DNA from: Pseudotabrizicola algicola
GTDB lineage: Bacteria > Pseudomonadota > Alphaproteobacteria > Rhodobacterales > Rhodobacteraceae
Direction of reading: 5' to 3'
DNA length: 64,000 bases
Assembly: GCF_010915705.1 (NCBI RefSeq)
Contig: NZ_JAAIKE010000003.1
Span: 372,001 to 436,000 of the forward strand
Shown here: positions 15,701 through 26,116 of the stretch, piece after piece
Layout: the number at the start of each line of letters is the position of its first letter
Position numbering within the stretch: position 1 is the first letter of the stretch
The notes under the pieces: generated by a model
The model's input: only the letters and a program-made list of their open reading frames with translations
The model's database searches: none
What the model was told of the DNA's origin: nothing
Translations under genes and position numbers: made by a program

Positions 15701-16723
15701 TCAGCCCTTCTTCAGGCAGCGGCTGCCCAAGACCTCGGCGATCTGCACCGCGTTCAGTGCCGCGCCCTTGCGCAGGTTGTCGGAGACGACCCAGATGTTC
15801 AGGCCGTTCTCCACCGTTTCATCCTGACGGATGCGGCTGACGTAGGTGGCATATTCGCCCACGCATTCGATGGGGGTGATGTAGCCGCCGGCCTCGCGCT
15901 TGTCGACGACCAGCACGCCGGGCGCCTCGCGCAGGATATCGGTTGCCTCTTCCCAGTCGAGGTAATCCTCGAACTCGATGTTCACCGCCTCGGAATGGCC
16001 GACAAAGACCGGCACGCGCACGCAGGTCGCGGTGACCTTGATCTTGGGGTCGAGGATCTTCTTCGTCTCGACCACCATCTTCCACTCTTCCTTGGTGTCG
16101 CCGCTGTCGAGGAAGACATCGATATGCGGGATCACGTTGAAGGCGATCTGCTTGGGGTAGACGCTTGGTGCCACTTCCTGACCGGGCACATAGATGCCCT
16201 TGGTCTGGTTCCACAGCTCGTCAATCGCTTCCTTGCCGGTGCCCGACACCGATTGATAGGTCGAGACCACCACCCGCTTGATCCGCGCGCGGTCGTGCAG
16301 GGGCTTGAGCGCCACCACCATCTGCGCGGTCGAGCAGTTGGGGTTGGCGATGATGTTCTTGTTCTTGTAGCGCACCACGTCATCGGCGTTCACTTCGGGA
16401 ACGATCAGCGGGATGTCGGGGTCGTAGCGGTAGAGCGACGAGTTGTCGATCACCACGCAGCCCTGGCTTGCGGCCTTGGGCGCATAGATCTTGGTGGCAT
16501 CCGACCCGATGGCGAACAGCGCGATGTCCCAGCCGGTGAAGTCGAACGTGTCGAGGTCCTGGGTCTTGAGGGTCTTGTCACCGAAGCTGACTTCGGTGCC
16601 CAGCGACTTGCGGCTGGCAAGCGCGGTGATCTCATCCACGGGAAACTCACGCTCGGCGAGGATGTTGAGCATTTCCTTGCCCACATTCCCCGTCGCGCCC
16701 ACGACAACGACTTTATAGCCCAT
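15701..16723 (-). CDS. asd: Aspartate-semialdehyde dehydrogenase
   Basis: 340 residues. Reduces aspartyl phosphate to aspartate semialdehyde for lysine, threonine, methionine and diaminopimelate synthesis. N-terminal VVVVGATGNVGKEML is the NADP-binding loop; the nucleophilic cysteine is in NPNCSTAQMV, the substrate Gln in YQSVSGTGK, and the proton-acceptor His in VPVFVGHSEAVNIEFE. ATG 16723 is chosen over an ATG four codons earlier because GGAGGG lies at the right distance. A stem (16751-16770) and a dispersed repeat (16791-16834) separate it from the upstream MFS gene on the same strand. Confidence 0.96.
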   Translation of the reverse strand: MGYKVVVVGATGNVGKEMLNILAEREFPVDEITALASRKSLGTEVSFGDKTLKTQDLDTFDFTGWDIALFAIGSDATKIYAPKAASQGCVVIDNSSLYRYDPDIPLIVPEVNADDVVRYKNKNIIANPNCSTAQMVVALKPLHDRARIKRVVVSTYQSVSGTGKEAIDELWNQTKGIYVPGQEVAPSVYPKQIAFNVIPHIDVFLDSGDTKEEWKMVVETKKILDPKIKVTATCVRVPVFVGHSEAVNIEFEDYLDWEEATDILREAPGVLVVDKREAGGYITPIECVGEYATYVSRIRQDETVENGLNIWVVSDNLRKGAALNAVQIAEVLGSRCLKKG

Positions 16724-16750
16724 CTGGCCCTCCATGCGTCAAACGACGAG

Positions 16751-16770
16751 CCCCCTTACAGCAAAGGGGG
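16751..16770. terminator. Hairpin between MFS transporter and asd
   Basis: CCCCCTT pairs with AAGGGGG around a six-base loop. There is no long T-run. It lies downstream of the minus-strand MFS gene and just past a dispersed repeat, so it may end or stabilise that transcript. Confidence 0.4.
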
Positions 16771-16790
16771 GAGAGTGGAAAGAGCGAGAG

Positions 16791-16834
16791 CGGGGCTCTG
16801 CCCCGCACCCCGGGATATTTGGAGACAGAAAATG
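16791..16834. repeat. Dispersed intergenic repeat, copy 1
   Basis: A hairpin-forming GGGGCTCTGCCCC followed by ACCCCGGGATATTTGGAG and a purine-rich GACAGAAAATG tail, immediately after the minus-strand MFS stop. Related copies are at 21461-21555, 26151-26224, 34405-34446 and 51371-51424. This copy is closest to the one at 26151, sharing CCGGGATATTT and GACAGAAAATG. Confidence 0.65.
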
Positions 16835-18001
16835 TCAGTCGGTGCGGTCCTGCGAGAAGGCATAGATCACAAGGCCCGCCGCCAGCAGCAGGGCGATGAA
16901 GCCGAAGATGGCGGCATAGGGGGCGGAGGCGGGATCAGGCGGCGTGCTTGCGTGGATGCGGCCGGTGGCGAGTTGCAGCAGACCCACGGGCGCGATGCCG
17001 AACAGATTCAGCAGGGTCACCCCGCGCCCTGTGAGATGCGCCGGGATGAAGGCGCGGCCATGCGCGATGACCATCGGAAAGGATGCACCGGCAAAGCCGA
17101 GGCCCGCGAGCAGCGCGATGGTGAGCGCGGGGCTTTGCGGCGAGAGCCACAGGCCGATGATACAGGCAAGCGCGATGGCATTGCCGCCGAAGATCAGCCA
17201 TTTGCGGGTGCCGAGCGCGCGTTCCAGGGGGCCATAGGCAAAGCTGCCCGCCACCATCGCCAGCCCCATGATCAGGCTGACCTGCCCGATCCATGCGGCA
17301 TCGGCGCCGAAGACGTCACGGAACAGCGGCCCCACCCACAGCCCGCGGATCGAGGCGGCAGGCGCATAGCACACCGCCATCATGACCAGCATCGGCCAGA
17401 GCGCGGGCATTTTCAGCAGGTCGAGCAGATTGCCCTTCTGCCCGCCCGCCGAGCGCGGCGGATCGCGCAGCAGCAGCAGAATGGCCAGGGCGATCAGCGC
17501 GGTGACCGCGGCCAGACCCCAGAGCGAGGCCCGCCAGCCAAAGGCCTCGACCGCCATCGACAGCGGCAGCGACGAGCCGATATTGCCCAGATTGCCGATG
17601 CCCACCGTGGCCCCCGCAAGGGTGCCGAAAACCGCGGGCGCATAGCTGCGCGCGAAAATGTAATAGGACGCCATCAGCACCGACGAGCAGCCGACCCCGA
17701 TCAGCACCATTGCCAGCTTGATCGCGCCCGGTCCGCTCGCAGTGGCAAAGATCGCCGCGCCCGCCGCACCGATCCCCATCAGCGTGGCGGTGGTCAGGCG
17801 CGGGCCGACGCGGTCCAGCGCCTCGCCCACCGGAATCTGCATGAGGGCAAAGGCCAGGAACCACAGGCCGGAGGCGGCGGCCAGATCGCTCGCGCTGGCC
17901 CCCAGATCCTGCCCCAGAACCGGCGTCAGCACCGCCAGAAAGGCGCGGTAGAACTGGCTGAGCACATAGGCCCCCAGCAGGGCGGCAATTCCGGCACGCA
18001 T
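16835..18001 (-). CDS. MFS transporter
   Basis: 388 residues with 12 predicted transmembrane helices. The loop 2-3 signature appears as GEALDRVGPRLT, and RDPPRSAGGQKG is the basic central loop between halves. Substrate is unknown. ATG 18001 is preceded by AAGGGG. It is divergent from the DUF4424 gene and followed by the asd gene on the same strand, but repeat and hairpin sequences in between suggest independent transcription. Confidence 0.85.
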   Translation of the reverse strand: MRAGIAALLGAYVLSQFYRAFLAVLTPVLGQDLGASASDLAAASGLWFLAFALMQIPVGEALDRVGPRLTTATLMGIGAAGAAIFATASGPGAIKLAMVLIGVGCSSVLMASYYIFARSYAPAVFGTLAGATVGIGNLGNIGSSLPLSMAVEAFGWRASLWGLAAVTALIALAILLLLRDPPRSAGGQKGNLLDLLKMPALWPMLVMMAVCYAPAASIRGLWVGPLFRDVFGADAAWIGQVSLIMGLAMVAGSFAYGPLERALGTRKWLIFGGNAIALACIIGLWLSPQSPALTIALLAGLGFAGASFPMVIAHGRAFIPAHLTGRGVTLLNLFGIAPVGLLQLATGRIHASTPPDPASAPYAAIFGFIALLLAAGLVIYAFSQDRTD

Positions 18002-18161
18002 GGTCAGTATCCCCTTGATGATGCGTGACCATTGCAGGCCCGCAAGACAGGGTCAACGGGGGCAGTCACGGATATTGGGCGGCGGTTTGCGCCATTGCAG
18101 GCTTGTCCGCGCGCGCGCCCGCGGGCAGAGTGCGGCAGGCATCACGAACGGGGGGCGGGCG

Positions 18162-19211
18162 ATGTTTCTGCGCGGTGTGGTTTCGGTCTGGGCGCTGCTT
18201 GCCGCGCCGATGGCTCTGGCCAATGACGGCTTTGGCGGCCTGAGTGCCACCGGCCTCACCTTCGGCCAGACCGAGGCCATCGCGATGGAGGAGGAAGACC
18301 TTTTCATCAGCCGAGACGCGGTGCGGGTGGACTATGTCTTTCGCAACCTGACCGGCGCCGATGTGACGGGCGAGGTGATCTTTCCGCTGTCGCCGATCTC
18401 GCTGACCTATCTGCTCACCTCCGATTACAACCTGCCCGATGATCCCGCCCGCGCCGATCTGGTGAACTTTCGCGCCATCGTCGATGGCACCGAGGTGCCG
18501 GTCAGCATCGACCGCATCGCCGTGATCGAGCCGCCGTGGCAAGAGAACCGCGATCCGGCCGAGCAATATGATACCCCCGGCGCGGATGTGACCGCCGCGC
18601 TGCTCCGCCACGGCATGCCGCTGGTGCCCGATGTCGATGCGGTTCTTGCGGCCTTGGCGGCCCGCGATTCGGCGCAGCTCCGCGCGATGGTCGACGAAGG
18701 GCTTCTGGAAAGCTTCAGCGACGCCCCGCGCCTGACCGCCGATGATGTGATGCCCCTGTGGTCCATTGTGCTGCGCTATCACTGGACGCAGACCTTTCCC
18801 GCCGGTCAGGCGCTGCGCATTTCCCACAGCTATGACAACCGGCCGCCGGGGGGCATCTTCGTCTGGCAAGACCCGCCAGAGGCCGAATGGCTGGCAGGCC
18901 TGCAAGCGCAGTATTGCATCGACGCCCCCACCTCGCGCGCCATTGCCGCGCGGCTTGCCGGATCCGAACAAGATGGCTTTGTCACCGGCACCGCATGGTA
19001 TCTGTCCTATGTCCTGCGCACCGCCAATTCATGGGCAGGGCCGATCGGCCGCTTCCGGCTCACCATCGACAAGGGCGACACCGATCATGGCCTGTCGCTC
19101 TGTGCCGAGGGTGTCAGGAAAACCGGGCCGACGACCTTTGAGGTCGAAAAGCGCGATTTCACCCCCGATGCCGATCTGGACATCCTGATCGTCGCCCCGT
19201 TTCAAGAGTAG
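18162..19211 (+). CDS. DUF4424 family periplasmic protein
   Basis: 349 residues. A Sec signal peptide (MFLRGVVSVWALLAAPMALA) directs it to the periplasm. The mature protein is beta-rich and matches DUF4424: VRVDYVFRNLTGADVTGEVIFPLSPI near the N-terminus, a central region ADDVMPLWSIVLRYHWTQTFPAG, and a C-terminal RFRLTIDKGDTDHGLSLC. The family is common in Rhizobiales and Rhodobacterales and its function is unknown. ATG 18162 is chosen because it begins the signal peptide. It ends ten bases before the convergent MFS gene. Confidence 0.82.
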   Translation: MFLRGVVSVWALLAAPMALANDGFGGLSATGLTFGQTEAIAMEEEDLFISRDAVRVDYVFRNLTGADVTGEVIFPLSPISLTYLLTSDYNLPDDPARADLVNFRAIVDGTEVPVSIDRIAVIEPPWQENRDPAEQYDTPGADVTAALLRHGMPLVPDVDAVLAALAARDSAQLRAMVDEGLLESFSDAPRLTADDVMPLWSIVLRYHWTQTFPAGQALRISHSYDNRPPGGIFVWQDPPEAEWLAGLQAQYCIDAPTSRAIAARLAGSEQDGFVTGTAWYLSYVLRTANSWAGPIGRFRLTIDKGDTDHGLSLCAEGVRKTGPTTFEVEKRDFTPDADLDILIVAPFQE

Positions 19212-19220
19212 GCCGCCCGC

Positions 19221-20456
19221 CTAGGCAGGCAGCGCCACCAGCGGCCTTTCCCGGATCGGCAGATGGACGATGGCCGAAAACGCGCCCACGCCCACGCCGA
19301 TCCACCAGACCAGCGTATAATCGCCGGTGATGTCATACATCTTGCCGCCCAGCCAGACGCCCAGAAACCCGCCGATCTGATGCGACAGGAAAACAAAGCC
19401 GTAGAGCGTTCCCATATAGCGCAGCCCGTAGATATGCGCGACAAGGCCCGAGGTCAGCGGCACCGTCGCCAGCCAGAGCGACCCCATCACCGCCGAGAAG
19501 ATCAGCACGGATTCCGGCGTGATCGGCAGCAGGATGAAGGTGGCGGCGGCAATGGTGCGCGCCACATAAATCCCCGCCAGCAGGTATTTCTTGGTATAGC
19601 GCTTGCCCAGCCAGCCCGCCGTCAGCGTTCCGGCGATATTGGCCAGCCCGATCACCGAAATCGCCACCGCCCCCAGCGCCGAGGTGCTGGTGATCCCCAT
19701 GCCCGCCAGCATGCCTGCCGGATCGATGGGGCCGCATAACTCGGTGACAAAGGCCGGAAAATGCGCGGTGATGAAGGCAAGCTGATAGCCGCAGCTGAAA
19801 AAGCCCAGAAAGATCAGGCTGAAGGACGGGTCCTTGAAGGCGCGTGTCAGAACCGCCCCCATGCTTTCCTCCAGTTCCGCCCGCGTCGCCACATGGGGCG
19901 AGCGGATGAAGGGCAGCGCAAACAGGCTCGCAAGGATCAACGCGGCAAAGATCACGAAAACCTCTTGCCAGACGTAGGATTGCAGCAGGAATTCCGCCAG
20001 AGGCGCGCCAAAGACCTGCCCCATCGACCCCGCGGCCGTGGCAATCCCCAAGGTCATCGACCGGTGCTCGGGCGCGGCGGCACGGCCCACCACCGCCAGT
20101 ACGACGCCAAAACCTGTCCCCGCGATGCCAAAGCCCACAAGGATTTCCAGAAACTGGTGCTGCCCCGGCGTCACGGCAAAGGAGGACAGAACCAGCCCCG
20201 CAGCATAGGTCAGCGCGCCCAGCACAATCGCGCGCCGGTCACCGAATCGCTCGGCCAGGGCGCCAAAGATCGGCTGCCCGATGCCCCAGGCAAGGTTCTG
20301 GATGGCGATGGCGAGGGAAAACTCGGCCCGCGCCCATCCGAAATCCTCGGCAATCGGAATCTGGAACACCCCGAAACTGGCGCGGATGGCAAAGCCCAGC
20401 ATCAGGATCACACATCCGGCAACAAGAACGGGGGTGATGATCGGGGATCTGGTCAT
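19221..20456 (-). CDS. MFS transporter (OFA-like)
   Basis: 411 residues with 12 predicted helices. The loop motif GALAERFGDRRAI is a good MFS motif A, and the central loop contains RSPHVATRAELEES. It resembles the oxalate/formate antiporter-like branch that carries carboxylates or small anions, but no substrate can be read directly. ATG 20456 is selected for its AGGAG ribosome-binding site. It lies downstream of the aldo-keto reductase in the same direction, so it may be the uptake or export partner of the neighbouring catabolic block (inference). Confidence 0.83.
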   Translation of the reverse strand: MTRSPIITPVLVAGCVILMLGFAIRASFGVFQIPIAEDFGWARAEFSLAIAIQNLAWGIGQPIFGALAERFGDRRAIVLGALTYAAGLVLSSFAVTPGQHQFLEILVGFGIAGTGFGVVLAVVGRAAAPEHRSMTLGIATAAGSMGQVFGAPLAEFLLQSYVWQEVFVIFAALILASLFALPFIRSPHVATRAELEESMGAVLTRAFKDPSFSLIFLGFFSCGYQLAFITAHFPAFVTELCGPIDPAGMLAGMGITSTSALGAVAISVIGLANIAGTLTAGWLGKRYTKKYLLAGIYVARTIAAATFILLPITPESVLIFSAVMGSLWLATVPLTSGLVAHIYGLRYMGTLYGFVFLSHQIGGFLGVWLGGKMYDITGDYTLVWWIGVGVGAFSAIVHLPIRERPLVALPA

Positions 20457-20568
20457 GGCGCGGGCTCCTGTCACGGGCGGACGATGTGCCTGCGGCCCTG
20501 CGGCGTCAAATGCTGATTTGTGCTGCGCACAATCGCGCCCGGACAGGGCCGCGCCGCGCAGGCTGGCC

Positions 20569-21381
20569 CTAGCCGAACGCGCGCGGATCAGGTCCCGTGC
20601 GCTCGCCGCTGTCCAGCGTCGCCATCGCCGCCATCTCCTCGGCGGTCAGGCTGAAATCGCAGATGTCGCGGTTCTCGGCCAGGCGCCCGCTGTTGGTGCT
20701 GCGCGGAATCACCGAGCAGCCCAGTTGCACATGCCAGCGCAGGATCACCTGCGCCGGGCTCTTGCCCGTGCGCGCCGCCACCGCCTGCACCGGAGCTGCG
20801 TCAAAGGAGCGGCCCAGCCCCAGCGGTGTCCAGCTCTGCGTCACGATCCCCAGCCGGTCGTGCAGGGCGCGCAACTCGGCCTGTTGCAACTGCGGATGCA
20901 GCTCGATCTGGTTCAAGACCGGCGTCACCCCCGTCTCGCCGATCAGACGCTCCAGATGGTCGGCCATGAAGTTCGACACGCCGATCGACTTCACCCGCCG
21001 CTCGTCGCGCAGGCGGATCATGGCCCGCCATGTGTCCAGATACAGGCCCTTGTCCGGGCAAGGCCAGTGGATCAGCAAAAGATCGGGCGTCAGCCCCAGC
21101 CGCGCCACAGACTCGTCAAAGGCGCGCAGCGTCTCGTCATGGCCCTGCCGGTCGTTCCAGATCTTCGTCGTCACGAACACCTGCTCGCGGGCCACGCGCG
21201 CGGCCCGCAAACCCTCGCCCAGCCCCGCCTCGTTGCCATAAATGGCCGCGCCGTCGATCAGCCCATAGCCCATGCCGATCGCTTCGGCGACGATCTCTGC
21301 GGTCCTGTCCGCCGGAACCTGCCAGATGCCCAGCCCCAGCGCCGGAATCCGGTTGCCGTCATTCAGCTTCAACACCGCCAT
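20569..21381 (-). CDS. Aldo-keto reductase (2,5-diketogluconate reductase-like)
   Basis: 270 residues, NADPH-dependent aldehyde/ketone reductase of the (beta/alpha)8 fold. Catalytic tetrad residues are Asp43, Tyr48, Lys73 and His105 (LIDGAAIYGN, VTTKIWND, LLLIHWPCP). Family segments VGVSNF-like (IGVSNFMADHLERL), NQIELHPQLQQ and the C-terminal VIPRSTNSGRLAENRDI for NADPH binding are intact. ATG 21381 has GGGAG six bases upstream. It sits at the edge of the putative sulfosugar cluster but is separated from the Gfo/Idh gene by a terminator and a dispersed repeat, so co-transcription is doubtful. Confidence 0.9.
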   Translation of the reverse strand: MAVLKLNDGNRIPALGLGIWQVPADRTAEIVAEAIGMGYGLIDGAAIYGNEAGLGEGLRAARVAREQVFVTTKIWNDRQGHDETLRAFDESVARLGLTPDLLLIHWPCPDKGLYLDTWRAMIRLRDERRVKSIGVSNFMADHLERLIGETGVTPVLNQIELHPQLQQAELRALHDRLGIVTQSWTPLGLGRSFDAAPVQAVAARTGKSPAQVILRWHVQLGCSVIPRSTNSGRLAENRDICDFSLTAEEMAAMATLDSGERTGPDPRAFG

Positions 21382-21460
21382 CGCTGTCTCCCGCAAATCT
21401 GGGCGTCAGGGAACAGATTTCAGGCGGGGGATGCAAGCGCGAACTGCCCCTCGCGGCGTT

Positions 21461-21555
21461 TGCTGCTTTCAAAAATACTCCGGGGGAGCCGCGCGTCGCA
21501 GCGCAGGTGCCTGCCAAGGGCGCTGCCGCCGCGCGGCGGGGGCGGAGCCCCCCGG
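21461..21555. repeat. Dispersed intergenic repeat, copy 2
   Basis: In minus orientation this reads CCCCCGGAGTATTTTTGAAAG followed by CAGCAAA, preceded by a GGGGGGCTCCGCCCCC-type hairpin separated by extra sequence. It is related to the copies at 34405 and 51371. It fills most of the gap between two minus-strand genes. Confidence 0.6.
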
Positions 21556-21558
21556 CCA

Positions 21559-21590
21559 AAAAGCGTGCCCCCGCCCTTGGCGGGGGCGCA
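21559..21590 (-). terminator. Terminator of the Gfo/Idh/MocA gene
   Basis: Strong GC stem (CGCCCCCGCC / GGCGGGGGCA) with a three-base loop, followed on the minus strand by TTTTT. It lies directly after the stop at 21592. Confidence 0.8.
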
Positions 21591-21591
21591 G

Positions 21592-22710
21592 TCAGATCAC
21601 GCTGGCGGGCGCATAGGGCGCGCGGGTCAGGTCCACCGCCTGCCCGGTCGCGGCACTTTCCTGCGCCGCCATGCCCATGGCGACGGCCCACCAGCCATCG
21701 AGCAGGCTCACCTCGGGGGACTGCACCCCGCGCACCACGCGCGCAAAGCCCTGATGCTGGTAGAAGGTGCTGCCATTATGGTCGCCCGCCGCCAGAATCT
21801 CAGGGTCCACCGGCACGTCCAGCACCCGCGGCCCCTTGGGCTCGCGCGGGCTCACGATGACCTGCGGCACCGGCGGCTCGCCCAGATGCGCGGGCCAGAA
21901 CCGGCCCGGCCCCGGCACCAGACAGTCGATCCTGCCCTTCGGCCCCACCGCCGAGATTTCCTCCTGATAGCGCGCGCCTTCGGCAAACATGCACAGCTCC
22001 AGCATCGCGCGCAGCCCGCTTTCAAACTCGACGATCACATAGGCATTGTCCCAGATGTCGGGCGTCTGCCCGTCATAGCGCTCGTCCAGATGGTTGACCG
22101 CCTGACCCGCACTCGCCATCACCCGCACCGGATCACAGCCGGCGATCAGCCGCATCAGGTCAAAGAAATGGCAGCATTTCTCCACCAGCGTGCCGCCCGT
22201 ATTGCGGTTGAACCGGTTCCAGTCGCCCACCTTTTCCAGAAAGGGAAACCGGTGTTCGCGGATGGTCAGCATCTTGATGCCCCCCGTCGCCGCCCGTGCC
22301 TCGGCAATCAGATGCGCCACCGGCGGCATGTAGCGATATTCCATCGCCACCCAGATCGGCGCCGGATAGGCGGCGCGCAGCGCGGCCAGACGCGGCGCAT
22401 CGGCAGGGTCGGTGAACAGCGGCTTTTCGCACAGGATCGGCAGCGGGCGGATCGCCGCGATCTCCTCGAGCTGCGCCAGATGCATGTAATTGGGCGAGAC
22501 GATCAGCAGGCAATTCACCGCCGGATGCGCCACCACGTCTGCAAGGCTGTCCATCATGACCGCCTCCGGCGCCAGCTCCGCCGCAAGCGCGCGCATCCCC
22601 GCATCCGGCTCGAAGATCGCGGCCACGCTTGCATCCGCGATCAGGGCGATGTTGCGCAAATGCTCTTGCCCCATCATGCCGCAGCCGATGACGCCATATC
22701 TCAGTTCCAT
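21592..22710 (-). CDS. Gfo/Idh/MocA family protein, candidate NAD-dependent sulfoquinovosidase
   Basis: 372 residues. N-terminal Rossmann domain with GCGMMG (residues 9-14), then the family EKP motif at Glu95-Lys96-Pro97 and a downstream GGTLVEKCCHFFD with His181 in the catalytic position. Members oxidise sugars with NAD(P), and some (family GH188) are sulfoquinovosidases that use NAD as a transient cofactor. Its place next to an SsuD-type monooxygenase set makes GH188 a specific hypothesis, while a plain sugar dehydrogenase is the alternative. It starts seven bases after the GntR gene's stop, so the two are co-transcribed, and it has its own terminator. Confidence 0.85.
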   Translation of the reverse strand: MELRYGVIGCGMMGQEHLRNIALIADASVAAIFEPDAGMRALAAELAPEAVMMDSLADVVAHPAVNCLLIVSPNYMHLAQLEEIAAIRPLPILCEKPLFTDPADAPRLAALRAAYPAPIWVAMEYRYMPPVAHLIAEARAATGGIKMLTIREHRFPFLEKVGDWNRFNRNTGGTLVEKCCHFFDLMRLIAGCDPVRVMASAGQAVNHLDERYDGQTPDIWDNAYVIVEFESGLRAMLELCMFAEGARYQEEISAVGPKGRIDCLVPGPGRFWPAHLGEPPVPQVIVSPREPKGPRVLDVPVDPEILAAGDHNGSTFYQHQGFARVVRGVQSPEVSLLDGWWAVAMGMAAQESAATGQAVDLTRAPYAPASVI

Positions 22711-22717
22711 GACAGCC

Positions 22718-23419
22718 TCATTTCAGACGCGCGACATAGGCGACGCGCTCGGGGTCGTACCAGGTGAAAGAGGCTTCGACCGACTGGCCGCTCTGCCCCC
22801 AGGTGATGCGCGTGATCTTCGGCAGCGCCGTGCCGGGCGCGTGCGGAAACTGCGGCGGTGCCCAATCGGGCAGGGGGCCAAGGCCCACGCGGTCCTCGGC
22901 CCGTGCAATCCACAGCTTCAGCCGCTGACGATAGAAAAGGTAGAGCGACTCCGACAGGTCGTCGGCGGTGATTTCGGGCGCAAGCGCGCCGTCCAGCCAG
23001 ATTTCCTCGACCGCCGCCACCACACCCGACAGGAACCGCAAGCGGCGTATCCGGTGTCCTTCGGCGCTGGTGCCGAAGCCGGGCAAGGACGGGTCCTTGG
23101 CGCAGCGCTCCACCGACAGCACCCGCGCGGTGGGCAGGCCGCCCCCCGCCAGCAACTCCAGCCGGAACAGCGCATAGACCGATGCCGGATCGGGCTTGGC
23201 ACGAATGTAATTCCCCGATCCCTGCACACGCTCCACCAACCCCTTGTCGCTCAGGGCCTGCAACGCCTGCCGCAAGGTGCCGACCGCAATCCCCAGCTCT
23301 GCCGCCATCTCGCGTTCCGGCGGCAGGCGCTGGCCGTCCAGCAACCGGCCCGCCGCGATGTCGCGGATCAGAAGCTCGGTGATCTGCTGGTAGAGGGGCA
23401 GGGCGCCAGAGAGGGTCAT
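22718..23419 (-). CDS. GntR family (HutC/UTRA) transcriptional regulator
   Basis: 233 residues. The N-terminal winged helix (PLYQQITELLIRDIAAGRLL, then LPPEREMAAELGIAVGTLRQ and LVERVQGSGNYI, residues ~8-75) is followed by a UTRA-like ligand domain (~85-233). HutC-type regulators usually repress neighbouring catabolic genes until a sugar or amino-acid ligand binds. ATG 23419 is chosen because residues before it look non-coding. It is divergent from the monooxygenase operon, with an inverted repeat in between that is a plausible operator. Confidence 0.9.
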   Translation of the reverse strand: MTLSGALPLYQQITELLIRDIAAGRLLDGQRLPPEREMAAELGIAVGTLRQALQALSDKGLVERVQGSGNYIRAKPDPASVYALFRLELLAGGGLPTARVLSVERCAKDPSLPGFGTSAEGHRIRRLRFLSGVVAAVEEIWLDGALAPEITADDLSESLYLFYRQRLKLWIARAEDRVGLGPLPDWAPPQFPHAPGTALPKITRITWGQSGQSVEASFTWYDPERVAYVARLK

Positions 23420-23451
23420 CAGGGCAGGGTCACGGGGGCTGCATGAATTGA

Positions 23452-23468
23452 TATAGGATTGATCTATA
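23452..23468. promoter_or_regulatory. Possible GntR operator between the divergent genes
   Basis: TATAG-GATTGAT-CTATA is an inverted repeat of two five-base arms in an otherwise GC-rich 116-base divergent gap. HutC-type operators often contain TATA-rich dyads. It overlaps the most AT-rich sequence of the gap and therefore probably promoter elements for one or both directions. Confidence 0.45.
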
Positions 23469-23535
23469 GCAATCCGGATGCTACGCAAGGGCAAAGATGC
23501 ATCCCCGCCACGGGATTTTCACGGAGACCCATGTC

Positions 23536-24693
23536 ATGACAGTTGTGCCCGTCACTTCGGCCGATCTCGGGGCAAGCGAGGTCAGCTGGTTCGCCGCCCT
23601 CTGCTCGGATGATTACGCCTATCTCGGCGTGCCCGACCCTGCGCTGCGGTCAAGCTGGGCGCACTGTTCCGGCATCGTGAAACGGGCCGAGGCGCATGGC
23701 TTTCGCAACATCCTCTGCCCCTCGTCCTATCAGGTGGGGCAGGACACGCTGTCTTTCGTCGCGGGCTGTGCGCCGATCACCGACCGCATCAACTTTCTGG
23801 CCGCCATCCGCTGCGGCGAGATGCAGCCCGTGATGCTCGCCCGCACCGTCGCCACGCTCGACCATATGCTGCAAGGGCGGCTGACGCTGAACGTCATCAG
23901 TTCCGATTTCCCGGGTGAGGTCGCGCCAAGCGCCTATCGCTACAAGCGCAGCCACGAGGTGGTGGAGATTTTGCGGCAGGCATGGACGCAGGACCACATC
24001 GAATACTCGGGCGAGGTCTACCAGATTTCCAGGGTCAGCGCCGATCCCGCGCGGCCCTACCAGCAGAACGGCGGCCCCCTGCTCTATTTCGGGGGCTATT
24101 CCCCCGATGCGCTGGAACTGTGCGGCGCGCAATGCGACGTCTACCTGATGTGGCCCGAAACCAAGGACATGCTGGCGCAGCGCATGCGCGATGTGCATAC
24201 CCGCGCCGAGGCGCATGGCCGCACGCTCGACTATGGCCTGCGCGTCCACATGATCGTGCGCGACACCGAGGCAGAGGCGCGGGACTATGCCGAACACATC
24301 GCCAGCAAGCTGGATGACGAATACGGCAAGCTGATCCGCGACCGCGCGCATGACAGCATCTCGCTCGGCGTCGCGCATCAGGCCCGCGCGCGCGAACTGG
24401 CCGATCAATACGGCTATACCGAACCGCATCTGTGGACGGGGATCGGCCGCGCGCGGTCTGGCTGCGGGGCGGCACTGGTCGGATCGACCGATCAGGTGCT
24501 GACCCAGATCGAGGAATATCGCAAGATGGGCATCCGCGCCTTCATCTTCTCGGGCTATCCCCATATGGATGAATGTGACCATTTCGGCACCAAGGTGTTG
24601 CCGCAGTTGAAAACCTGTTCTTTGCCCCATGAATATGGCCGCGTGCCTTCCGGCACGCCCGCCACCCCCCTAGGAAACGGACCCCGCCGCTGA
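23536..24693 (+). CDS. LLM-class flavin-dependent sulfonate monooxygenase, candidate sulfoquinovose monooxygenase
   Basis: 385 residues, SsuD family. Uses FMNH2 and O2 to split a C-S bond of a sulfonate, releasing sulfite and an aldehyde. Residues equivalent to the E. coli SsuD active site are visible at a constant offset of ten: Arg236 and His238 (GLRVHMIV; SsuD Arg226 and His228), Arg307 (GRARSGCGAALVG; SsuD Arg297), Tyr341 and His343 (SGYPHMDE; SsuD Tyr331 and His333). ATG 23536 has GGAG upstream. The next gene, an aldo-keto reductase, overlaps by one base, and a flavin reductase follows. This order equals smoC-smoB-smoA of Agrobacterium. Alkanesulfonate or methanesulfonate substrates remain possible. 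Confidence 0.88.
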   Translation: MTVVPVTSADLGASEVSWFAALCSDDYAYLGVPDPALRSSWAHCSGIVKRAEAHGFRNILCPSSYQVGQDTLSFVAGCAPITDRINFLAAIRCGEMQPVMLARTVATLDHMLQGRLTLNVISSDFPGEVAPSAYRYKRSHEVVEILRQAWTQDHIEYSGEVYQISRVSADPARPYQQNGGPLLYFGGYSPDALELCGAQCDVYLMWPETKDMLAQRMRDVHTRAEAHGRTLDYGLRVHMIVRDTEAEARDYAEHIASKLDDEYGKLIRDRAHDSISLGVAHQARARELADQYGYTEPHLWTGIGRARSGCGAALVGSTDQVLTQIEEYRKMGIRAFIFSGYPHMDECDHFGTKVLPQLKTCSLPHEYGRVPSGTPATPLGNGPRR

Positions 24694-25586
24694 TGGAAAA
24701 GATTGCCCTTTCGCCCGAAGTCTCGCTCTCTCGCCTCGTCTACGGCATGTGGCGGCTGGGCGATGATGAAAACACCAGCCCCGCTCATGTGCAGGCCAAG
24801 ATAGAATCCTGCCTTGCCCAGGGCATCACCACGATGGATCAGGCCGACATCTATGGCGGCTACACCGCCGAGGCGATCCTCGGGGCGGCCCTGCGCGCGG
24901 CCCCTGCCTTGCGCGACCGGATCGAGATCGTCACCAAATGCGATATCGTGGCCCCCGCCGGCCGCCATGCCGCCGCGCGGGTGAAGTATTACGACACAGG
25001 CGCCGCACATATCAACGCCAGCGTCGAGGCGTCCTTGCGCGACATGGCGACCGACCGGATCGACCTTCTGCTCATCCACCGCCCCGACCCGCTGATGGAC
25101 CATCACGAAACCGGCGCGGCGCTGGATGCTCTGGTGGCCAGCGGCAAGGTGCGCGCGGTGGGGGTGTCGAACTTCCGGCCCTGGGATGTGGAATTGCTGC
25201 AATCGGCGATGACCGCCCCGCTGGTCACCAACCAGATCGAACTGAGCCTGAGCGCCCATGCCGGATTCACCAATGGCGATGTGGCCTATCACCAGCGCAA
25301 GGGCCAGCCGCTGATGGCGTGGAGCCCGCTTGCAGGCGGCAGCCTTCTGTCGGGGGCCGATCTGCGCCTGCGCGACGCGCTGCACCGCATCGGGGCCGAG
25401 CAGGGCACCGACTGGTCGGCGGTGGCGGTGGCATGGCTCTTGCGCCACCCCGCGCGGATCCTGCCCGTGATGGGGACCAACAGCCTCGAGCGGATCGGCA
25501 GACTTTCTGACGCCTGCCGTGTAGAAATGGATCGCCAGACGTGGTTCGAGCTCTACACCCATGCGATGGGACACGAGGTTCCGTGA
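24693..25586 (+). CDS. Aldo-keto reductase, candidate 6-oxo-glucose reductase (SmoB-like)
   Basis: 297 residues. Tetrad residues Asp49, Tyr54, Lys82 and His129 are present (TTMDQADIYGGY, VTKCDIV, LLLIHRPDP), with the E. coli YdhF-like pattern VGVSNFRPWDVELLQ and NQIELSL. In the sulfoquinovose monooxygenase pathway, SmoB reduces the 6-oxo-glucose made by the monooxygenase to glucose. That role is inferred from context, not from residues. It overlaps the monooxygenase stop (TGATG) and its own TGA overlaps or abuts the flavin reductase, showing a tightly coupled operon. Confidence 0.88.
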   Translation: MEKIALSPEVSLSRLVYGMWRLGDDENTSPAHVQAKIESCLAQGITTMDQADIYGGYTAEAILGAALRAAPALRDRIEIVTKCDIVAPAGRHAAARVKYYDTGAAHINASVEASLRDMATDRIDLLLIHRPDPLMDHHETGAALDALVASGKVRAVGVSNFRPWDVELLQSAMTAPLVTNQIELSLSAHAGFTNGDVAYHQRKGQPLMAWSPLAGGSLLSGADLRLRDALHRIGAEQGTDWSAVAVAWLLRHPARILPVMGTNSLERIGRLSDACRVEMDRQTWFELYTHAMGHEVP

Positions 25587-25600
25587 CAGCGGAGAGCGCA

Positions 25601-26116
25601 ATGGCGGATGGAGCGATGATGACCGATGTGCAGTTCACCCCCGAGGGCAACCCGCGCGCCTTCCGCGACGCGCTGGGCCGTTTTGCCACCGGAGTCACAT
25701 TGGTGACCTGCGCCACGCCGGGCGGGCCGATGGGCTTTCTGGCCAACAGCTTTGCCGCGGTGTCGCTTGACCCGCCTCTGGTGCTGTGGTCGCCCGCGAA
25801 ATCCTCCAGCCGCTTTGCCCATTTCGCCGAAGCACGCCACTATGCGATCCATGTGCTGGAGGCCGCCCATGCCGATTGGCTGCCCCGCTTTGCGCGCGGC
25901 GGCGCGGGATTTGATGGCCTGCCCCATGCGGTCGGCGCCGAGGGCGTGCCGCTGATCGACAGCGCGCTGGCCCGCTTCGACTGTGTGCAACACGCCGCGC
26001 ATGACGGCGGCGATCACCTCATCATCGTGGGCCGCGTGCTGAGCGCCGCCTACCGCGACGGCGCGCCGCTGGTGTTTTCGCAAGGCGCTTACGGGCGGTT
26101 CAGCGGCGGTCTCTAG
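25601..26116 (+). CDS. NAD(P)H:flavin oxidoreductase, candidate SmoA-like
   Basis: 171 residues, FMN-binding flavin-reductase (HpaC-type) domain. RAFRDALGRFATGVTLVTC, GFLANSFAAVSLDPPLVLW and the C-terminal PLVFSQGAYGRF are family landmarks. It would supply reduced FMN to the monooxygenase two genes upstream. ATG 25601 has GGAGA five bases before it. A GTG at 25583 overlapping the preceding stop (GTGA) and ATGs at 25616 and 25619 are alternatives. It is the last gene of the operon, followed by a dispersed repeat. Confidence 0.87.
   Translation: MADGAMMTDVQFTPEGNPRAFRDALGRFATGVTLVTCATPGGPMGFLANSFAAVSLDPPLVLWSPAKSSSRFAHFAEARHYAIHVLEAAHADWLPRFARGGAGFDGLPHAVGAEGVPLIDSALARFDCVQHAAHDGGDHLIIVGRVLSAAYRDGAPLVFSQGAYGRFSGGL

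Follow-up and report, generated by a model that had tools for sequence, protein, structure and literature searches.

A predicted sulfo-SMO gene block with its own GH188-type gateway glycosidase in Pseudotabrizicola algicola

Known sulfo-SMO systems and the layout of the locus

Sulfoquinovose is the sugar of plant sulfolipids and represents a large pool of organic sulfur. The sulfo-SMO system of Agrobacterium tumefaciens contains a GntR regulator, and its sulfoquinovosidase is a GH31 enzyme. This system, also termed sulfo-ASMO, is described as having an SQ monooxygenase, a flavin reductase and an aldo-keto reductase (PMC9594981, PMC12890257), along with an ABC importer and a sulfoquinovosidase (PMC9594981). 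The presence of SmoB and SmoC, with SmoB within 10 ORFs, has served as a criterion for sulfo-SMO (PMC13372026). Kaur et al. 2023 (PMC10755693) described the founding GH188 sulfoquinovosidases, ArSqgA (8QC3/5/6) and FlSqgA (8QC2/8), proposed a C3-oxidation mechanism for GH188, and reported the family to be near-universal in the sulfo-SMO clusters of Roseobacter-clade bacteria.

The window analysed here is a stretch of 64,000 nucleotides from Pseudotabrizicola algicola. We are highly confident that a sulfo-SMO core and a gateway glycosidase of its own are encoded here; what the enzymes do, how they are regulated and by which effector is predicted from the named families. The block shares its monooxygenase, flavin reductase and aldo-keto reductase set with the A. 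tumefaciens system (PMC9594981, PMC12890257), whereas it has a GH188 enzyme and no transporter in the locus where that system is described with an ABC importer and its own sulfoquinovosidase (PMC9594981). Like the Roseobacter-clade clusters (PMC10755693), it has SqgA in the cluster and no GH31, and Ruegeria TM1040 shows the same five-gene order. Given the reported near-universality of GH188 in those clusters, the arrangement itself is already known; the locus provides one more Rhodobacteraceae genome with a predicted route from sulfoquinovose to glucose and sulfite and with its own glycosidase. In the open-access literature we found no paper on sulfoquinovose and Pseudotabrizicola, one on sulfoquinovose and monooxygenases in Rhodobacteraceae, and one on sulfoquinovose and TRAP transporters, which concerns a gut taurine degrader.

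According to Pfam and the ORF list, a minus-strand GntR/UTRA regulator and a Gfo/Idh/MocA gene face away from a plus-strand trio of a luciferase-like monooxygenase, an aldo-keto reductase and a flavin reductase, in that order, giving two divergent units, sqgA-smoD and smoC-smoB-smoA. The original prediction had described this block; its genes lie where they were placed and Pfam confirmed their families, but the left end of its range, 20569, falls inside a second aldo-keto reductase that it had not mentioned, a DkgA-like gene left of sqgA (20569-21396, minus strand). On the minus strand, sqgA occupies 21592..22710 and encodes 372 aa, and smoD occupies 22718..23419, with Pfam GntR and UTRA matches above cut-off. 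Directly 3' of sqgA and ahead of the DkgA-like gene is a terminator-like hairpin (21567..21587, minus strand) of 9 GC pairs followed by a T run; support for it is weak, with 7 such sites in the scan against 4.3 expected and a fold z of -0.14 against shuffles. On the plus strand are smoC (23536..24693, 385 aa), smoB (24693..25586) and smoA (25601..26116); smoC and smoB overlap by one base, and smoB and smoA are 14 bases apart. The predicted start of smoC is most likely the ATG at 23536 rather than 23497, because the alignments to 7OLF and 7OH2 begin there, and that of smoD is most likely the internal ATG at 23419 rather than the TTG at 23494, because a frame from the latter would cross the conserved intergenic element. 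For smoA, the ATG at 25601 is the most likely start. The genes right of smoA are presumably panC and panB, with panC directly after smoA, and an MFS gene (19221-20474) lies left of the DkgA-like gene.

Glycosidase and enzymes of the predicted pathway

The Gfo/Idh/MocA gene had been noted earlier as co-directional with the regulator, which it is, and had been left without a role. We identified its product as a predicted GH188-type NAD+-dependent sulfoquinovosidase of Gfo/Idh/MocA fold, SqgA, on the strength of its matches to 8ZN9 (557 bits), 8QC3 (ArSqgA, 371 bits) and 8QC2 (FlSqgA, 363 bits) and of its contact residues. Residues were mapped on 8QC3 (49% identity), and eight of the nine published contacts could be placed on one offset. 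All eight are identical: the sulfonate contacts R154, L158 and K160 of SqgA correspond to Arg166, Leu170 and Lys172 of ArSqgA, and the sugar contacts K96, Y125, E177, H181 and H311 to Lys107, Tyr136, Glu189, His193 and His321. The remaining contact, published as ArSqgA Glu163, reads Val in 8QC3 and Arg in SqgA, with a Glu one residue later in both. The three sulfonate contacts are described as 96 to 98% conserved across GH188 (PMC11465081). Moreover, the GH31 catalytic domain had no match anywhere in the genome, a gap that is reportedly filled by GH188 (PMC10755693). The control search for this domain was positive in 6 of 14 genomes.

SmoC, the predicted flavin-dependent sulfoquinovose monooxygenase, is 84.4% identical to 7OLF (762 bits) and 82.3% to 7OH2 (743 bits), both of which we take to be SmoC structures, as against 32.5 and 33.3% to SsuD and MsuD (185 to 194 bits). 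A tree of 26 rows was built, including 16 of the best 80 loci (of 494 smoC relatives) and 5 of 19 plasmid hits; three distantly related proteins encoded by this genome were left out, as they had produced very long branches. The window row fell with L001 and L004 (Pseudorhodobacter, Pseudotabrizicola), within a 21-row group (98/97) containing both 7OLF and 7OH2, and SsuD and MsuD were set apart by a 100/100 branch. The monooxygenase phylogeny agrees with the identities in placing the protein in the SmoC group, apart from SsuD and MsuD, so the grouping with alkanesulfonate or methanesulfonate enzymes that would have counted against the original prediction is not seen. SmoB, an aldo-keto reductase and predicted 6-dehydroglucose reductase, scored 477 bits to 7BBY/7BBZ, presumably SmoB structures, and 217 bits to the next best sequence. 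Its gene is the one next to smoC, well inside the 10 ORFs of the published criterion (PMC13372026), and the structure matches, the trees and this pairing of SmoB with SmoC bear out the earlier claim of a sulfo-SMO locus. SmoA, the predicted supplier of reduced flavin for SmoC, matched Pfam Flavin_Reduct; its best NCBIfam model, FerA, scored 215 bits, below the cut-off of 260, and no fitting curated equivalog was found among the NCBIfam models. A flavin reductase is reported to be absent from some known sulfo-SMO clusters (PMC9594981).

In the route proposed from these family assignments, SqgA would cleave sulfoquinovosyl glycerol via a transient NAD+-dependent oxidation at C3 and release free sulfoquinovose. 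SmoA would reduce flavin using NAD(P)H, and SmoC, with the reduced flavin and O2, would cut the C-S bond to give sulfite and 6-dehydroglucose, which SmoB would then reduce to glucose.

Conservation, regulation and transport

From 494 smoC relatives on genome contigs we took the best 80 and, adding the window, compared 81 loci; this selection biases the set to close relatives. Across these 81 loci, clustering found SqgA in 75 and direct matching found it in 76; SmoB was present in 74 and SmoA in 71. Six contigs stop within 3 kb downstream of smoC, and five loci (L048, L053, L063, L064 and L066) genuinely have no smoB and smoA beside smoC. A survey of 198 genomes of the family identified smoC (E 1e-150) in 88, sqgA (E 1e-100) in 103 and both in 85, and in 80 of these 85 sqgA lay within 10 kb of smoC. 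The dN/dS of the five block genes ranged from 0.06 to 0.31 (8 close relatives; longest ORFs), indicating purifying selection on all five; since the neighbouring MFS and DkgA-like genes are likewise constrained (0.05 to 0.20), these values show retention of the block and not its function.

The intergenic element at 23446..23489, AATTGATA(n4)ATTGATyTA ... TGyTACGCAAG, is likely the SmoD operator and the smoC promoter. SmoD adjoins smoC in 80 of the 81 loci (window and best 80 of 494), and the core ATTGAT(n5)ATTGWT lies within 115 bases upstream of smoC in 80 of the 81 as well; the sole locus without the core, L062, also has no smoD match. The 80 elements comprise 71 distinct sequences, and TASGCAA follows the core in 72 of them. 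Base shuffles gave an expectation of 0.002 for the core, which is not a strict test because the loci are related. A sigma-70 scan did not call the conserved element as a promoter. Through this element, SmoD would govern sqgA-smoD as well as smoC-smoB-smoA. When up to 3 mismatches were allowed, the copy before smoC was the only one in the window and also the only one genome-wide, where a reversed-pattern control likewise gave one match, so the scan yielded no regulon member indicating an importer. The conserved element could aid the search for further loci of this kind.

No importer was found within the locus. The earlier statement that the block has no ABC transporter holds for the locus. What its relatives commonly have as a partner is a TRAP system, whose genes are found downstream of smoC in 49 of the 81 loci (window and best 80 of 494). 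In the family survey, a TRAP binding protein was detected in 72 of 198 genomes, namely 53 of the 88 with smoC and 19 of the 110 without it, and in 49 of those 53 it lay within 10 kb of smoC. Ruegeria TM1040 and these 49 of the 88 smoC genomes have TRAP beside smoC, in contrast to the window and the group of 39 of 88 without a linked TRAP; some of the 39 perhaps reflect fragmented assemblies, and at this number the absence is not rare. No TRAP genes stand beside the window block, and neither the window genome nor its genus mate had a TRAP binding protein match, the closest sequences in the window genome being 33-34% identical. TRAP lies between smoA and panC in L018 and after smoA in L005, whereas in L001-L004, L006 and L007 panC is close to smoA and TRAP is absent. 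This pattern points to loss of the TRAP importer in this lineage, the alternative being repeated gain elsewhere. We tentatively propose, as a possibility less likely than not, that the locus of the Pseudotabrizicola group lost its TRAP importer and that a different, unlinked importer took over while the enzymes stayed under purifying selection. If so, the replacement importer would be a new carrier class for sulfoquinovose or its glyceride. An ABC transporter encoded at another place in the genome (L089, L091) matches one beside smoC in some rhizobia (binding protein 65%, permease 71%); it was rejected as the importer on a weak ground, its kduI-like neighbour, kduI being the name we assume for the adjoining gene.

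The MFS gene had been suggested in the original prediction as the transporter. Six of the seven nearest loci (L001-L003, L005-L007), as well as L011, have it two genes away from sqgA, and some sulfosugar systems do include an MFS carrier, such as YihP, an exporter (PMC12890257). However, the gene is found family-wide and independently of smoC, in 72 of 88 genomes with smoC and 89 of 110 without it (odds ratio 1.06; 161 of 198 overall), and it was within 10 kb of smoC in 2 of the 69 genomes with a listed position, three further positions being unlisted. Moreover, it is not beside the block in L004, it co-occurs with TRAP in L005, and the smoC-type element has no second copy in the window. We consider it improbable that this gene is the importer of the sulfo-SMO system. 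The comparison thus linked a TRAP transporter genomically with smoC and sqgA, and removed a wrong transporter candidate.

The DkgA-like gene was also rejected as a part of the pathway, being present in 9 of 88 genomes with smoC and 5 of 110 without it (p = 0.16). It lies within 10 kb of smoC in two of the nine, both of the window's genus, and adjoins the block in L001-L007, L011 and L018. Its product scored 307 bits against the NCBIfam DkgA-type model, below the cut-off of 425. In one genome without a smoC match (G191), about 5 kb separate the DkgA-like gene and the MFS gene.

Substrate class of the monooxygenase

Monooxygenases about 51% identical to SmoC are found among different neighbours, one in Emticicia being next to a GH95 gene, and the position of such roughly 50%-identity proteins in the tree is unsure because of long branches. 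These proteins raise the question of whether the substrate of the block is a related sulfosugar or a sulfonated glycoside rather than sulfoquinovose. The high identity to 7OLF, 7OH2 and 7BBY argues against this, as do the eight SqgA contacts that could be placed, all kept and three of them to the sulfonate, and we regard such a substrate as very unlikely.

We also compared SmoC with six positions that we take to be the active-site residues of SsuD. The claim that all of them are present at a constant offset stood for five, Trp196, Arg226, His228, Arg297 and Tyr331, each at +10, and failed for Cys54, which aligns with Gly68 of SmoC. An operon for sulfur scavenging with an alkanesulfonate or methanesulfonate monooxygenase of SsuD or MsuD type would share the Pfam family and these five residues with the SsuD/SsuE and MsuD systems, but it is hardly credible given 33% identity where 7OLF and 7OH2 reach 84 and 82%, the 100/100 branch between the groups, the SmoB and SqgA partners, and a score of 233.8 bits against the NCBIfam SsuD equivalog TIGR03565, whose cut-off is 518.2.

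The genome has one close copy of smoC; three further luciferase-like proteins encoded there are 23 to 27% identical to it. We found no paper for the PDB codes 7OLF, 7OH2, 7BBY and 7BBZ in the open-access literature. A point against the assignment is that the PDB matches of SmoC and SmoB are deposited under the names 'Methanesulfonate sulfonatase', 'Alkanesulfonate monooxygenase' and 'Aryl-alcohol dehydrogenase'.

Conserved element upstream of smoC

A conserved intergenic element lies before smoC (window 23446-23489), and its core was found in 80 of 81 loci, namely the window and the best 80 of the 494 smoC relatives. We propose that this element is likely the SmoD operator and promoter. The original prediction had not included it.

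Transporter genes at the sulfo-SMO loci of relatives

Among the same 81 loci, 49 carry the TRAP transporter genes dctQMP downstream of smoA, as exemplified by the relatives' loci L018 (6139-9232), L005 (12588-15346) and L010 (12590-15574). Moreover, 53 genomes of the family have both the TRAP genes and smoC, and in 49 of these the two lie no more than 10 kb apart. The TRAP transporter is a candidate sulfoquinovose importer in those relatives.

Five loci (L048, L053, L063, L064 and L066) contain sqgA, smoD and smoC, with an ABC transporter occupying the usual place of smoB and smoA after smoC. L063 also encodes a protein of about 826 aa (15877-18357), which gave no match in a Pfam search at an E-value of 0.001. 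This protein is also encoded in the window's own genome (G000:C1, about 883000-886000; locus L091), where the adjoining gene is presumably kduI. An ABC sugar transporter adjoins the gene in all nine loci of the protein's cluster.

Plasmid locus and DkgA-like neighbour

An Emticicia plasmid (L095) encodes a SmoC-like monooxygenase (51% identity) beside sodium/solute symporter and GH95 genes; neither smoA nor smoB is among the genes listed in its incomplete gene table.

The gene for a DkgA-like aldo-keto reductase (window 20569-21396) adjoins the sulfo-SMO block in loci L001-L007, L011 and L018. G191, a family genome with no smoC match, also has this gene, at a distance of about 5 kb from its copy of the window's MFS gene.
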